From assembly GCF_000522505.1 (NCBI RefSeq), contig NZ_AZMV01000007.1:806001-870000 (forward strand): 64,000 nucleotides of DNA, in the 5' to 3' direction. Each line of letters opens with the position of its first letter. The stretch's first letter is position 1. Positions 58,617-64,000 of this stretch are shown piece by piece. The notes under the pieces are model-generated. The model made no database searches, had not been told where the DNA came from, and saw only the letters and a list, made by a program, of their open reading frames with translations. Source of the stretch: Bifidobacterium moukalabense DSM 27321 (lineage in GTDB: Bacteria; Actinomycetota; Actinomycetes; Actinomycetales; Bifidobacteriaceae). Made by a program: the position numbers and the translations under genes.

Positions 58617-60206
58617 ATGGGTATTCTTGACGGTGAGTTGAAGAAAGCGAGGGCCGGCATGGAGCAGCAGGGCGAGACGATGCAATCCCTCAGTGAGGCC
58701 AACGACCAGCTGATGGCCAAGAACCACGCGTTGGCGAAGGCGCTGACCCGTGCCACGAAGGAGCTTGCCAAGGCCAAGGCGCAGTTGAATCAGCTGGCCG
58801 GGCCTCCTCTGACCTTCGCCACCATGGTGCGCGTGCATGCGGCGAACACCGATGAACAGGGCGTGCAGCATGCCAGCGCCGAAGTGATCTCGGGCGCACG
58901 GCGCATGATCGTGCCGGTGGCCGCGAGCGTGCCGGCATCCCGTTTGGAAGCGGGGCGTACGGTGCTGCTCAACGAGAACATGGTGATTGTGAGCCAGCAT
59001 GACACCGATACGCTGGGCGCGGTGCGTGCCGTCAAACAGGTTTTCGACGATGGTCGTCTATTGGTGACCGATAGTGGGGGCAACGCCACCTTGGTACGCC
59101 GCGCCGGCATACTTGCCAAGGAGAGCATCAACACCGGGGATCGGGTGGGCGTGGACTCCTCCATCCGCCTTGCACTGACCCTGATTCCCGCCGAAGATGA
59201 TGCCGAGCTGGTGCTTGAGGAGACCCCGGACGTCACCTTCGATGACATCGGCGGTTTGGACGAGCAGATCGAACGCATCCGTGATGCCGTGCAAATGCCG
59301 TTCCTGCATCGTGAGCTGTTCGAACGCTACGATCTGAAACCGCCGAAAGGGGTGCTGCTGTATGGTCCTCCAGGCAATGGCAAGACGCTGATCGCCAAGG
59401 CCGTGGCGAACGCGCTCGCCGAAGGATGCGGCGCGGGCTCCGGCGTATTCCTTTCCGTGAAGGGGCCGGAGCTGCTCAATAAGTTCGTGGGTGAGTCGGA
59501 ACGTCTGATTCGCATGATCTTCAAGCGTGCGCGTGAACGTGCCGCCGACGGCAGACCGGTCATCGTGTTCATCGACGAGATGGATTCGTTGCTGCGCACT
59601 CGCGGATCCGGTGTGTCCTCGGATGTGGAGACCACCATCGTGCCGCAGTTCCTCTCCGAACTGGACGGCGTGGAAAGCCTCGATAACGTGATGGTGATCG
59701 GGGCATCCAATCGCATCGATATGATCGATCCGGCCGTGCTGCGACCGGGCCGCCTGGACGTGAAGATCCGGGTGGATCGTCCGAAGGCGAGGCAGGCCGG
59801 GCAGATCATCCGGCATTATCTGACCGATGATCTGCCGCTTACGCCGGGTATCGAAGCGAAGGCGCTGACCAGCGTGCTCGTTGCCGACATCTATGCGATC
59901 AGCGAGCACCGCCATCTATGCGACGTATGCGACGAGCATGGGCAGTGGTCGCCGGTCTACCTGGCCGACGTGGTCTCCGGAGCGGTGCTGAAGAACGTCG
60001 TGGATCGTGCTAAGACGAAAGCCGTCAAGATATCCATCGAATCGGCGGAACCGGCGGCGATAGGCGTAGATCTGCTGGCAAAGGCCGTGCAGGAGGAATT
60101 CGAGGAGACCCGAGACGCCATACTGGATGCCGATCCGGTGCAATGGAGCCGGATCAACGGGTTTGACGCAGGGCATGTGACGCGTATCAGGCCTGCGGCG
60201 CAATAA
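58617..60206 (+). CDS. arc: AAA ATPase forming ring-shaped complexes (ARC/Mpa family)
   Basis: A 529-residue AAA ATPase related to the mycobacterial proteasomal ATPase. An N-terminal coiled coil (about 5-65) that binds Pup is followed by OB-like domains (about 70-190) and the AAA module: GPPGNGKTLIAKAVANAL, VIVFIDEMDSLL and ASNRIDMIDPAVLRPGRLD. It ends IRPAAQ and lacks the C-terminal GQYL tail that docks on a 20S proteasome, fitting the absence of proteasome genes here. Start ATG 58617 is chosen on position; ATG 58660 is out of frame. The ribosome site is weak. Confidence 0.93.
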   Translation: MGILDGELKKARAGMEQQGETMQSLSEANDQLMAKNHALAKALTRATKELAKAKAQLNQLAGPPLTFATMVRVHAANTDEQGVQHASAEVISGARRMIVPVAASVPASRLEAGRTVLLNENMVIVSQHDTDTLGAVRAVKQVFDDGRLLVTDSGGNATLVRRAGILAKESINTGDRVGVDSSIRLALTLIPAEDDAELVLEETPDVTFDDIGGLDEQIERIRDAVQMPFLHRELFERYDLKPPKGVLLYGPPGNGKTLIAKAVANALAEGCGAGSGVFLSVKGPELLNKFVGESERLIRMIFKRARERAADGRPVIVFIDEMDSLLRTRGSGVSSDVETTIVPQFLSELDGVESLDNVMVIGASNRIDMIDPAVLRPGRLDVKIRVDRPKARQAGQIIRHYLTDDLPLTPGIEAKALTSVLVADIYAISEHRHLCDVCDEHGQWSPVYLADVVSGAVLKNVVDRAKTKAVKISIESAEPAAIGVDLLAKAVQEEFEETRDAILDADPVQWSRINGFDAGHVTRIRPAAQ

Positions 60207-60249: not shown

Positions 60250-61833
60250 ATGAGTGTTCGTCGGGTGATGGGAACTGAAACCGAGTACGCGGTCTCCAGC
60301 CGTGGCGCAGGTCGGTACAATCCGGTGCAACTATCGTTCGACGTGGTCGGCGCGGCTTCGGACGAGCGTACGAAGCATATCCGATGGGATTACCGGCAGG
60401 AAGACCCCGTCAACGACGCCCGCGGCACCCGTCTGGAACGTGCATGCGCGCACCCCGACCTGCTCACCGATGCACCGCAGCTCAACATCACCAACGTGAT
60501 CGCGGCCAATGGCGGACGCGTGTATGTTGACCATGCGCATCCGGAATATTCCGCTCCGGAAACCACCGACCCCTTCGAAGCGGTGCGATACGACCATGCC
60601 GGCGACCTTATCATGCGGTGGGCCGCGTCGAAGGCGAGCGACATCACGGGGCATGCCATCGTGCTGCATCGCAACAACGTGGATGGCAAAGGCGCCAGCT
60701 GGGGCACGCACGAAAACTATACGCTGCTGCGTGCGGTACCGTTCGAGGAAGTGACGCGACTGATGACCGCGCATTTCGTATCGAGGCAGATCTATACGGG
60801 CTCCGGTCGCGTCGGCTTGGGGGAGCGCAGTGAACGCGCCGGCTACCAGCTCAGCCAACGCGCCGACTATTTCCATATGAAAGTGGGTCTGCAGACCACT
60901 TTCGACAGGCCCATCATCAACACCCGCGACGAATCGCACAGTACCGACGAATACCGTCGATTGCACGTGATCGTGGGCGACGCCAACCGTATGGATGTGC
61001 CGCAGGCGTTGAAACTCGGCACTACCAGCATGCTGCTATGGCTGCTCGAACATGCCGGCGAGGCAGGTCTTGACCTGAACGCGATGATGGATGCGCTGAC
61101 GCTCGCCGATCCGGTGGAGGCGATGCACACCGTTTCGCACGACCTGACGCTGAATGCCGAGCTGCCGTTGGAAAACGGCGGCACGACCACGGCATGGCAG
61201 ATGCAGGTCACCCTGCGGGGCATGGTGTATGCGGCGGCCGCGATGATCCACGGCAGCGACACGGCGGGGGAGCCGGCCTGGCCGGACCGTTCCACGCGCA
61301 ACATCATGGCGATGTGGGGCCAGGCGCTCGCCGACGTGGCCGCCATCCGCCATGCCGATGACGATCGGCGTCTGGGCATGAGTGAACAGGCCGGCCGCAT
61401 TGAGTGGCTGCTCAAGTGGAGACTGTTGGAAAAGCTACGTCGCAAAATCAACTCCGATTGGGCCGATCCGCGTCTGGCCGCCGTGGATCTGCAATGGGCC
61501 GCACTTGATCCCAAGGATTCGATCTTCGCGAAACTGGCGTCCCAGACGGAACGGTTGATTGGCGATGCGCAGCTGGAACAGGCGAGCGTGGAGCCGCCAA
61601 GCGATACGCGCGCTTGGTTGCGTGCACAGATGATTCGGCGGTTCCCTGAGCAGGTGGTGGCAGTATCATGGTCTCGTCTGACGGTTCGTTGTGAGACGAG
61701 TGGTGATAAATCCGTGGAGAATACCATGCTGTCATTGGACATGTCAGATCCCTTGGCCTTTGGTGAATCCCAGTGTTCGCGAGCCTTCGAGGGGGTATCG
61801 GACGCACGGGCGGTCATAGGCCGTTTGCGCTGA
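60250..61833 (+). CDS. dop: Depupylase/deamidase of Pup
   Basis: A 527-residue carboxylate-amine ligase-fold enzyme that removes Pup from targets. It starts SVRRVMGTETEYAVSS (the ETEYG-like nucleotide site), has the Dop-loop region with EDPVNDARG (about 50-62) absent from PafA, and the catalytic Asp in RVYVDHAHPEYSAPE. Pup here already ends in Glu, so deamidation is not needed and depupylation is the expected role. ATG follows GAAAGGAA. Between arc and the IMPase-like gene. Confidence 0.93.
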   Translation: MSVRRVMGTETEYAVSSRGAGRYNPVQLSFDVVGAASDERTKHIRWDYRQEDPVNDARGTRLERACAHPDLLTDAPQLNITNVIAANGGRVYVDHAHPEYSAPETTDPFEAVRYDHAGDLIMRWAASKASDITGHAIVLHRNNVDGKGASWGTHENYTLLRAVPFEEVTRLMTAHFVSRQIYTGSGRVGLGERSERAGYQLSQRADYFHMKVGLQTTFDRPIINTRDESHSTDEYRRLHVIVGDANRMDVPQALKLGTTSMLLWLLEHAGEAGLDLNAMMDALTLADPVEAMHTVSHDLTLNAELPLENGGTTTAWQMQVTLRGMVYAAAAMIHGSDTAGEPAWPDRSTRNIMAMWGQALADVAAIRHADDDRRLGMSEQAGRIEWLLKWRLLEKLRRKINSDWADPRLAAVDLQWAALDPKDSIFAKLASQTERLIGDAQLEQASVEPPSDTRAWLRAQMIRRFPEQVVAVSWSRLTVRCETSGDKSVENTMLSLDMSDPLAFGESQCSRAFEGVSDARAVIGRLR

Positions 61834-61865
61834 ACATCACGCCGGTCGCGTACTATTCGTGATGA

Positions 61866-61874
61866 TGGTATAAC
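61866..61874 (+). promoter_or_regulatory. Extended -10 promoter within the Pup cluster
   Basis: TGGTATAAC is an extended -10 (TGnTATAAC) about 92 bases before the IMPase-like gene; no clear -35 accompanies it. It suggests that IMPase-like, pup and pafA may be transcribed apart from arc-dop. Confidence 0.45.
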
Positions 61875-61965: not shown

Positions 61966-62796
61966 ATGGAATTGAGGCAGGCGGCCCTCGAAGTGGCCCG
62001 TATTCTGCAGGATGCAGGCAAACATGCGTTGAACGATCAGACCAATCCGCGTGATATGAAAAGCCTTGAGCTGTCTGATGACCATCTGCATTTCACGTCG
62101 GATCTCGACAAGCGTCTTGCGCAGTTCATCAGCAACCGTATCACCTATGTCGATGTATTCGACGGATTCTGGCAGTTCCGTCCGGATGAGTGCCATCCGG
62201 GGGAGCGGTATTGGTGCGTCGGCGGCATCGACGGTGTGATCAACTTCGCCCACGACATGCCGGAGTGGGCCATCACCGTAACCTTGTTCGAATTCAACGA
62301 GCAATGCTCCGCGCAGCCGATTCTTGCGGTGGTGCACGCCCCGGCGTTGGGGTTGACGTATCTTGCGGTCCGGGGATCGGGTGCCATCCGCATCCGCCGT
62401 ACTCCGTTGGGTGACAAGCGCGAGAAGATCATTCCCTCCACCACGCCGTCGTTGGACGGGGCGGTGGTGAGCTTCGGCATGTCGTATGTGCCGTCGGAAT
62501 CCAAGCGATCCCTCGACGTGGTGGCGCGCATTGCCGGTCGTCCGGCCGACATCAAGCGTGTGGGGCCGGTGTCGTTGGATCTGTGCAAGGTGGCGGACGG
62601 CACGTATGACGCCTATTTCGAGCCGCATCTGCATAAATGGGATGTTCCCGCGGTGTCGGCGGGCGCCATGATGGTCTGGGAAGCCCAAGGCCACCTGAGC
62701 CAATGGAATGGCGACGGCATTCATTGGCGTCAGGAAAACGATGTGGTGGCCACCAACGGGCTCATCAACAACGATTTGCGTCAGTATTTGGTATAG
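61966..62796 (+). CDS. Inositol monophosphatase-like protein with degenerate active site
   Basis: A 276-residue protein of the IMPase/FBPase fold. Where active enzymes have D-P-I-D-G-T-x-N-F it reads G-G-I-D-G-V-I-N-F, losing the first metal-binding Asp and the catalytic Thr; the upstream Glu-Glu is also not evident, although the distal WDVPAVSAGAM Asp remains. It is therefore doubtful as a phosphatase of the usual mechanism. It follows dop and precedes pup. ATG has AAAAGG 9 bases upstream. Function not assigned. Confidence 0.75.
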   Translation: MELRQAALEVARILQDAGKHALNDQTNPRDMKSLELSDDHLHFTSDLDKRLAQFISNRITYVDVFDGFWQFRPDECHPGERYWCVGGIDGVINFAHDMPEWAITVTLFEFNEQCSAQPILAVVHAPALGLTYLAVRGSGAIRIRRTPLGDKREKIIPSTTPSLDGAVVSFGMSYVPSESKRSLDVVARIAGRPADIKRVGPVSLDLCKVADGTYDAYFEPHLHKWDVPAVSAGAMMVWEAQGHLSQWNGDGIHWRQENDVVATNGLINNDLRQYLV

Positions 62797-62895: not shown

Positions 62896-63087
62896 ATGCC
62901 TCAGGAATTCGAACAGATCCGGACTGCGGACCAGCCTCAGGAGAACGAGGAAAGCACGGCGGTCGCCGGCGTGCGGACGGGCGATGCCGCGGACGCCCTG
63001 GATGCCGTGCTGGATGACATCGAATCCGTGCTGGAGACCAATGCCGAAGAATATGTCGGCAGTTTTGTGCAAAAAGGCGGTGAGTGA
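62896..63087 (+). CDS. pup: Prokaryotic ubiquitin-like protein Pup
   Basis: A 63-residue disordered, acidic tag with the conserved C-terminal half LDDIESVLETNAEEYVGSFV and ending GGE. The encoded terminal Glu allows direct ligation to target lysines by PafA without Dop deamidation. GAAAGGGAAG precedes the ATG. Its stop overlaps the pafA start (TGATG). The upstream in-frame extension is not used by family standards. Confidence 0.96.
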   Translation: MPQEFEQIRTADQPQENEESTAVAGVRTGDAADALDAVLDDIESVLETNAEEYVGSFVQKGGE

Positions 63088-64000
63088 TGCCGCAGCTGCG
63101 CGACAGCGGCAATCATTCGACGGCCCCGCTTGACGGTCGGACCCGCAGTGAAGTCGATGCGTTCACCCGCATCTTCGGCATCGAAACCGAGTATGGCGTC
63201 AGCGTGACCGGGGCCGATGCGCCTTGCAATTCGGGGCAGACGGCCATGATGATGTTCCAGCCGATCGTGGCCCGGTCCAGGTCGACGAACACCTATATCG
63301 AAAACGGTTCGAGACTGTATCTTGATGTCGGCTCGCACCCGGAGTACGCCACGGCGGAGGCCCGCGACCCCATGGACGCGCTGGCCCTTGACATGGCCGG
63401 CGAACTGGTGATGCACGATCTTGCCATGGATGCCCAGCGTAGGCTACGGGCAAGCCATGGCAAGCGCACCATGGTGCATGTATTCAAGAATAACGCCGAT
63501 TCCGCCGGCCATTCCTTCGGTTGCCATGAGAATTATCTGGTGCGTCGTTTCGTACCGCTGACTGTCATCGAGCATGAGCTGTTGCCGTTTCTGATCACCC
63601 GTCAGATATTCACCGGAGCCGGACGCGTGGGGGAGCGGGGCTTCCAGGTCACGCAGCGTGCCGACTTTTTGGATGAGGCCGTGTCTTCGGCCACCACGCG
63701 TTCGCGGCCGATGGTGAACACGCGGGACGAACCGCATGCCGACCCGGATGCGTTTCGCCGACTGCATGTGATCATCGGCGATTCCAACCGTTCCCAGTGG
63801 GCCACGATGATGAAGCTCGCCACCACGCATCTGGTATTGTGCGTCATCGAGCAGGCGGGTCGCGAAGGCCGCGAGTCCGGCTTCGCGCGATTGGCCTTCG
63901 TCGATCCCGGTGCGGCGAATCATGCCGTCAGCCGTGATGTGAGCGGTGTCGGTGCGACCTTCGATATGGCCGATGGTGGTGTGATCTCCGGCGGTGCGGT
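63087..64000 (+). CDS. pafA: Pup-protein ligase, 3' partial
   Basis: The first 304 residues of PafA, open to the window edge. An N-terminal tail (PQLRDSGNHSTAPLDGRTR) of about 28 residues precedes IFGIETEYGVSV, the nucleotide site; the catalytic Asp is in RLYLDVGSHPEYATAE; NNADSAGHSFGCHENYLV and RQIFTGAGRVGERGFQVTQRADF follow. It ligates the terminal Glu of Pup to lysines of target proteins using ATP. ATG 63087 overlaps the pup stop, so translation is coupled. The Dop-loop is absent, which separates it from dop. Confidence 0.95.
   Translation, partial: MPQLRDSGNHSTAPLDGRTRSEVDAFTRIFGIETEYGVSVTGADAPCNSGQTAMMMFQPIVARSRSTNTYIENGSRLYLDVGSHPEYATAEARDPMDALALDMAGELVMHDLAMDAQRRLRASHGKRTMVHVFKNNADSAGHSFGCHENYLVRRFVPLTVIEHELLPFLITRQIFTGAGRVGERGFQVTQRADFLDEAVSSATTRSRPMVNTRDEPHADPDAFRRLHVIIGDSNRSQWATMMKLATTHLVLCVIEQAGREGRESGFARLAFVDPGAANHAVSRDVSGVGATFDMADGGVISGGA

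Follow-up and report, generated by a model that had tools for sequence, protein, structure and literature searches.

What does a phosphatase-like gene do in the middle of the pupylation locus of Bifidobacterium moukalabense DSM 27321? In the window, i.e., the whole stretch of 64,000 nucleotides that was analyzed, an ORF that we call IMPL is found between dop and pup. A preliminary description had taken its product for a phosphatase-fold pseudoenzyme that has lost the metal-binding Asp and the catalytic Thr, and had proposed from the position of the gene that the protein acts as a regulator or adaptor in pupylation. The host genome comprises 2.5 Mb in 12 contigs, and the closest named relative among the matches listed, from which records of the own genome were possibly excluded, is B. 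ruminantium, with 87% identity. The features of the locus are collected in Table 1.

Table 1. Features of the IMPL region, with positions counted from the first nucleotide of the window
Feature	Position	Strand	Basis
Mpa/ARC proteasomal ATPase homolog, start as chosen here	58617..60206	+	TIGR03689, 680.4 bits
Dop, start as chosen here	60253..61833	+	TIGR03688, 633.9 bits
TACTAT, −10-like element (TAnnAT) just after the dop stop	61851..61856	+	10 of 10 aligned regions; consensus match only
TGGTATAAC, extended −10 of the preliminary description	61866..61874	+	2 of 10 aligned regions (own and a 99% relative)
IMPL, catalytically degenerate IMPase-fold protein, 276 aa	61966..62796	+	ORF (ATG at first position, stop ending at last), PF00459 match, AlphaFold2 fold
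QFR aligned with G-E-E, codons 70–72, metal Glu replaced by Arg72	62173..62181	+	Alignment
GGIDGV in place of DPIDGT, codons 86–91	62221..62238	+	Alignment, 51 canonical vs 101 IMPL proteins
WDVPAVSA, codons 225–232, WD kept, with 3-residue insertion	62638..62661	+	Alignment
Pup, ending in ...KGGE	62896..63087	+	Read from sequence, directly before PafA
PafA, 5′ part, running off the window	63084..64000	+	TIGR03686, 387.3 bits for the part in the window

The position of the gene is as previously described, with Dop upstream and Pup and PafA downstream. In Pup-plus genomes, the order of the probed genes, as read from the window, from L177, and from other loci, is fmt – (rsmB) – serB – mpa – dop – IMPL – pup – pafA – membrane protein – purB; the labels of fmt, rsmB, serB, and purB were assigned from sequence, as was that of the HAD/SerB-like gene near IMPL, and short unprobed ORFs lie between some genes of the compared loci. 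QYL-type C-terminal ends serve in proteasome docking, and the Mpa/ARC homolog of the window, which terminates in ...RIRPAAQ, is without such an end. A 20S proteasome gene (PF00227) was not found in the host genome. The host thus appears, from its genes, to pupylate proteins while having no proteasome, as is known from other Actinobacteria (PMC8223512).

The region between dop and IMPL was aligned for ten chosen loci, mostly from near relatives and with the window's own included. The extended −10 that had been assigned to IMPL as its own (TGG-TATAAC) is present in the window but conserved in only two of these ten regions. The TAnnAT element, which is found in all ten, is a candidate promoter for IMPL-pup-pafA, while a strict sigma-70 scan returned no plus-strand promoter between 60000 and 64000.

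The assignment of IMPL to the phosphatase fold is borne out at two levels. The protein matches the Pfam Inositol_P model PF00459 with 73.8 bits (E 2.1e-20, cut-off 27), and its AlphaFold2 model, built on a 30-row alignment, is predicted to adopt the IMPase fold with a pLDDT of 90.3 and a pTM of 0.89. The best solved fold matches to this model are P. aeruginosa SuhB, the T. maritima IMPase (TM1415), and E. coli SuhB, with VIA Z values from 31.6 (P. aeruginosa SuhB) to 31.3 and rmsd values of 2.0–2.7 Å over 242–256 residues. The fold is thus common to IMPL and the bacterial IMPase/SuhB proteins over the whole length (VIA Z of about 31), at an identity of 22–25% in the structural alignment. The two also have in common Asp89, Gly90, Asn93, Gly200, Glu219, Asp226, and the Glu239-Ala240 pair (IMPL numbering), and they differ in the loss of the Asp and Thr of DPIDGT and of the Glu of GEE, in a 3-residue insertion after WD, and in 21 clade-specific positions.

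To describe these differences, 115 distinct IMPase-family proteins were extracted from 146 of 148 loci. The IMPL set consists of 101 distinct proteins scoring more than 200 bits against the protein of the window, and the contrast set of 51 canonical proteins (52 loci tried), with 14 canonical paralogs from the 115 extracted and 36 of the 51 from outside Bifidobacteriaceae. The motif residues of canonical IMPases are metal and water ligands. In the DPIDGT stretch of IMPL, the metal Asp is replaced by Gly86 and the catalytic Thr by Val91, while Asp89 and Gly90 are kept. The metal Asp is present in 51/51 canonical proteins and in 0/101 IMPL proteins (97 Gly, 4 Cys), and the catalytic Thr in 50/51 and 3/101 (L131, L133, and L134), respectively. 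The metal Glu of GEE is found in all 51 canonical proteins and in 12 of the 101, with Arg in 62, in a stretch whose alignment is less certain than that of DPIDGT. The DPIDGT stretch reads C-P-[IL]-D-G-[TA] in four proteins from one family-level genus, which would fit a loss of the Asp before that of the Thr.

Other residues of the old site are fully retained: Asp89, Gly90, Asn93, Gly200, Glu219, and the WD-motif Asp226 are conserved in 101/101 IMPL proteins. The clade-specific insertion follows the latter, and its Pro228 is found in 96 of the 101, where 51/51 canonical proteins have a gap. In total, 21 positions are at least 95% conserved in IMPL and present in at most a tenth of the canonical proteins. 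They include W69, E100, R142, R152, P193, K197, P201, H223, and the inserted P228, and Gly86 is likewise listed among the invariants that are IMPL's own. The hairpin at 142–152 is basic and conserved.

IMPL was detected in 110 of the 112 genomes of the genus and in all 105 of good quality, and in 104 of the 110 carriers it is the only PF00459 protein detected. A second one occurs in six genus genomes (G009, G051, G058, G074, G097, and G102); the three second proteins that were extracted (L110, L112, and L114) have canonical EE and DPxDG motifs. In an order-level sample of 297 genomes, the 23 Bifidobacteriaceae that carry IMPL score 435–490 bits and the best outsider 117, and the best outsider in a phylum-level sample of 396 genomes scores 114; within the genomes searched, the IMPL clade does not extend beyond Bifidobacteriaceae. 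A quick tree of 18 selected IMPL rows and 51 canonical ones unites the former in a single clade (SH-aLRT 99) on a long stem branch, and among these rows it resolves no IMPase-family sister group to them. Strongly reduced family members, such as G121 (1.1 Mb) and G123 (0.8 Mb), each 99% complete, lack both IMPL and Pup; IMPL is therefore not indispensable in every cell.

We have also considered that IMPL descends from a canonical IMPase residing in other pup loci. The 36 loci of the best-scoring hits outside the family (ca. 2.5–3.8 kb each) contain no Mpa, Dop, Pup, or PafA, which speaks against such an ancestor among the best hits, a more distant case being possible. Iyer et al. (2008) list FKBP isomerases, a DeoR-type regulator, and PAC2 as pup-locus neighbors, and the words "phosphatase" and "inositol" have no match in the main text of that paper (PMC2588565). 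The main text of a B. breve TraDIS study (PMC5514069), whose gene list is in the supplements, does not mention proteasome, phosphatase, SuhB, or histidinol. No publication on IMPL appeared among the matches listed, which covered titles and the beginnings of abstracts on bifidobacterial pupylation, essential genes, IMPases, and pseudophosphatases.

The link of IMPL to the Pup system was tested by co-occurrence. The presence of Dop/PafA was scored by PF03136, and in the family sample only hits of at least 276 bits were counted as IMPL, with weaker ones taken as paralogs. PF03136 is matched in 98 of the 112 genus genomes: 97 have both, 13 have only IMPL, one has only the Pup ligase (G096, 82% complete and in 340 contigs), and one has neither (G055, 74% complete). 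The corresponding numbers for the 61 genomes of the family sample are 32, 7, 0, and 22. The IMPL-only share is therefore 13/110 carriers in the genus and 7/39 in the family sample. These 20 genomes are 83–100% complete, 17 of them at least 90%, and no match to Mpa, Dop, Pup, or PafA was found in their 20 loci, which span 16–20 kb around IMPL.

On the IMPL gene tree, the Pup-minus label changes six times, and all changes are forced by starred branches. Two fall in one family-level genus, where a loss followed by a regain is an alternative, and a second family-level genus, G125, G013, and a Gardnerella-like clade with genomes of 1.5–1.8 Mb have one each; the last is taken for Gardnerella from its genome size and GTDB placement. 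The Pup system was thus lost at least five times around IMPL, as counted on the gene tree and not on a species tree. In several Pup-minus genomes, mpa-dop and pup-pafA are gone from both flanks and IMPL is left in place: the order is fmt – serB – IMPL – membrane protein – purB in G109, fmt – IMPL – membrane protein – purB in G125, and fmt – rsmB – IMPL – membrane protein – purB in G113, G139, and G150. Other Gardnerella-like loci keep fmt – serB – IMPL, with no probed downstream gene within their stretch. The Pup-minus G013, which stands beside the Pup-plus G086, G087, and G090 on the gene tree, has an inverted IMPL as in the G085 group, with the pup genes absent. Within the Gardnerella-like Pup-minus group, the serB-like gene beside IMPL points one way in one sub-clade and the other way in another (L090 and L091).

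Selection on the gene was estimated as dN/dS by the NG86 method from pairs with a dS of 0.15–2, values that come from high dS and non-independent pairs: the median is 0.060 (range 0.025–0.123; 39 of 55 pairs) for 11 Pup-minus Gardnerella-like sequences, and 0.084, 0.150, 0.220, and 0.109 (22, 21, 26, and 27 of 28 pairs) for four Pup-plus groups of eight. There is no sign of relaxed purifying selection on IMPL in the one Pup-minus clade tested in this way. Because all 101 distinct orthologs, taken across the Bifidobacteriaceae, are without the metal Asp, chance or a sequencing error is excluded as the origin of its loss, and together with the low dN/dS this also rules out a recent pseudogene. 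New residues are fixed in the place of the lost motifs, and IMPL is therefore an old, selected pseudoenzyme. The motif losses and the pseudoenzyme status that had been assigned from the single sequence are in this respect well supported, with the Asp, the Thr, and in most members the Glu replaced; judged by its sequences, IMPL is a genuine pseudophosphatase.

We therefore turn to what such a protein would do. Relatives that lost pupylation have kept IMPL, and its role is therefore probably separate and basic. The explanation that we favor, and consider probable, is that IMPL is a non-catalytic IMPase-fold protein with a core role independent of pupylation, exerted by binding a ligand or a partner. 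It builds on what is seen here, i.e., the predicted fold, the motif losses, the new invariants, the family-wide retention under purifying selection, and the retention without Pup and without histidine synthesis. IMPL would have been inherited vertically in Bifidobacteriaceae as an old pseudophosphatase, keeping the IMPase fold and the substrate-pocket residues named above. With the first metal Asp and the catalytic Thr lost, and in most members the metal Glu as well, the usual site for Mg2+ and the activated water would not be assembled, while Trp69, Gly86, Glu100, Arg142, Arg152, Pro193, Lys197, Pro201, His223, and Pro228 would have become fixed. The protein could then work without catalysis: its altered pocket could bind a small phosphorylated ligand, or it could dock on a partner protein, by analogy with SuhB of Escherichia coli, for which the phosphatase activity is not needed. 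It would serve a core process that is kept even in the small bifidobacterial genomes of 1.5–1.8 Mb. Such a binding role is the best-supported reading of IMPL.

A specific form of this explanation, that IMPL is a SuhB-like factor of transcription or ribosome assembly, i.e., a Nus-type factor specific to the family that has shed phosphatase activity, is conceivable and on balance unlikely. In the cell, the phosphatase activity of SuhB is dispensable, as the effects of a suhB mutation can be relieved without it (PMC6614801), and a non-catalytic IMPase-fold factor is therefore plausible in general. The best solved relatives of the IMPL profile are E. coli SuhB chains, including those of rRNA antitermination complexes (79.1 bits), the fold of E. 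coli SuhB matches with Z values of 31.3–30.6, and the basic hairpin of IMPL is consistent with such a role. However, SuhB is barely above other IMPases in the profile comparison (75.9 bits for T. maritima, 68.7 for human IMPA1, and 63.0 for HisN), its fold is tied with that of human IMPase (VIA Z 30.8), and the tree does not place IMPL beside any resolved sister group. In addition, the acidic repeat of NusA to which SuhB binds (TIGR01954) has no match at E 0.001 in the host genome (G000), while 6 of 14 control genomes, including E. coli, were positive. A SuhB–NusA AR2 contact of the E. coli type can thus be rejected for this host, other contacts being possible.

The role that had been proposed from position, in which IMPL would be co-transcribed with pup-pafA and bind Pup, Dop, or PafA as a regulator or adaptor, perhaps in addition to a second, older role that would account for its retention in other genomes, is rather improbable. 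The linkage with pup in relatives holds in one sense, as IMPL adjoins pup-pafA in all Pup-plus loci read (a subset of the Pup-plus genomes), but IMPL also persists without pup genes. It lies directly before the pup-pafA side in 56 of 59 loci, the other three being from Pup-minus genomes, and does so also where the segment is inverted: in the Pup-plus genomes G085, G012, and G093 (L178, L179, and L180), the IMPL-pup-pafA block is inverted relative to mpa-dop and fmt and convergent with mpa-dop. A joint move as one block possibly fits some, weaker link; the wider fmt...purB neighborhood is likewise conserved. Moreover, the only Pup-plus genome without IMPL is the incomplete G096, with none in the family sample, so that no reasonably complete Pup-plus genome is without it. 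However, that Pup implies IMPL and not the reverse is expected of any core gene. IMPL resembles the accessory genes of the Pup-proteasome system in its position between dop and pup, and unlike them it outlasts the loss of mpa, dop, pup, and pafA; co-loss with the Pup system is not seen, as the 13 genus and 7 family genomes keep IMPL with Dop/PafA undetected, and dN/dS is low in the clade tested. On this pattern of co-occurrence, a pupylation partner is rejected as the main role. The link between IMPL and pupylation is positional: the place before pup-pafA would reflect an inherited gene order and at most shared transcription, while a second role touching pupylation is possible.

We also regard it as improbable that IMPL is still an enzyme, with a re-designed site in which Asp89, Asp226, and Glu219 act together with His223, Glu100, and Lys197 in a different chemistry or with a single metal. 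With Asp89, Glu219, and Asp226 in 101/101 IMPL proteins and the new invariants fixed, a weak or altered metal-dependent chemistry is possible as far as sequence can tell. Against this, the catalytic Thr has been lost, most members have neither ligand of the usual first metal site, and the metal-Glu position is variable, unlike a catalytic residue that has been re-used.

Finally, IMPL can hardly be a divergent histidinol phosphatase (HisN), the function that one class of IMPase-family proteins usually has in Actinobacteria: HisN, the IMPase-family HolPase of C. glutamicum (PMC1590026), belongs to the same superfamily and is the best NCBIfam match, and in most genus genomes no PF00459 protein other than IMPL was detected, but the match of 61.6 bits is far under the TIGR02067 cut-off of 275.15, the catalytic motif is lost, and IMPL is kept in 14 of the 15 genus genomes (of 112) in which hisD (PF00815) was not found, which include all 13 IMPL-only genomes, these being Pup-minus, and G012, so that this candidate is largely refuted. 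Proteins of B. longum appear in the IMPase tree figure of the same paper (PMC1590026).

As an observation on the genus in its own right, hisD was found in none of the 13 Pup-minus IMPL carriers (L089–L101), and among the 98 Pup-plus genomes only G012 and the fragmentary G096 are without it; Pup and histidine synthesis have been lost in the same genomes.

Returning to the binding role as the preferred reading, we put forward its most far-reaching version only tentatively: the Bifidobacteriaceae may have turned what is, in most genus genomes, their sole detected IMPase-fold protein into a dedicated factor without catalysis that is gated by a metabolite or binds a partner and serves a core process such as rRNA transcription or ribosome assembly. 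If true, IMPL would be the first representative of a new class of pseudophosphatases, its annotation having suggested a metabolic enzyme and its position a pupylation gene, both wrongly. Bifidobacterial models that give it inositol-monophosphatase or histidinol-phosphatase activity by its family name are probably wrong. The natural deletions that split IMPL from pupylation mark a limit of inferring function from gene position. As a conserved dead enzyme that has survived the repeated loss of its neighbors and is, in most genus genomes, the sole detected member of its fold, the protein is a clean target in the search for new non-catalytic functions in an important gut lineage.
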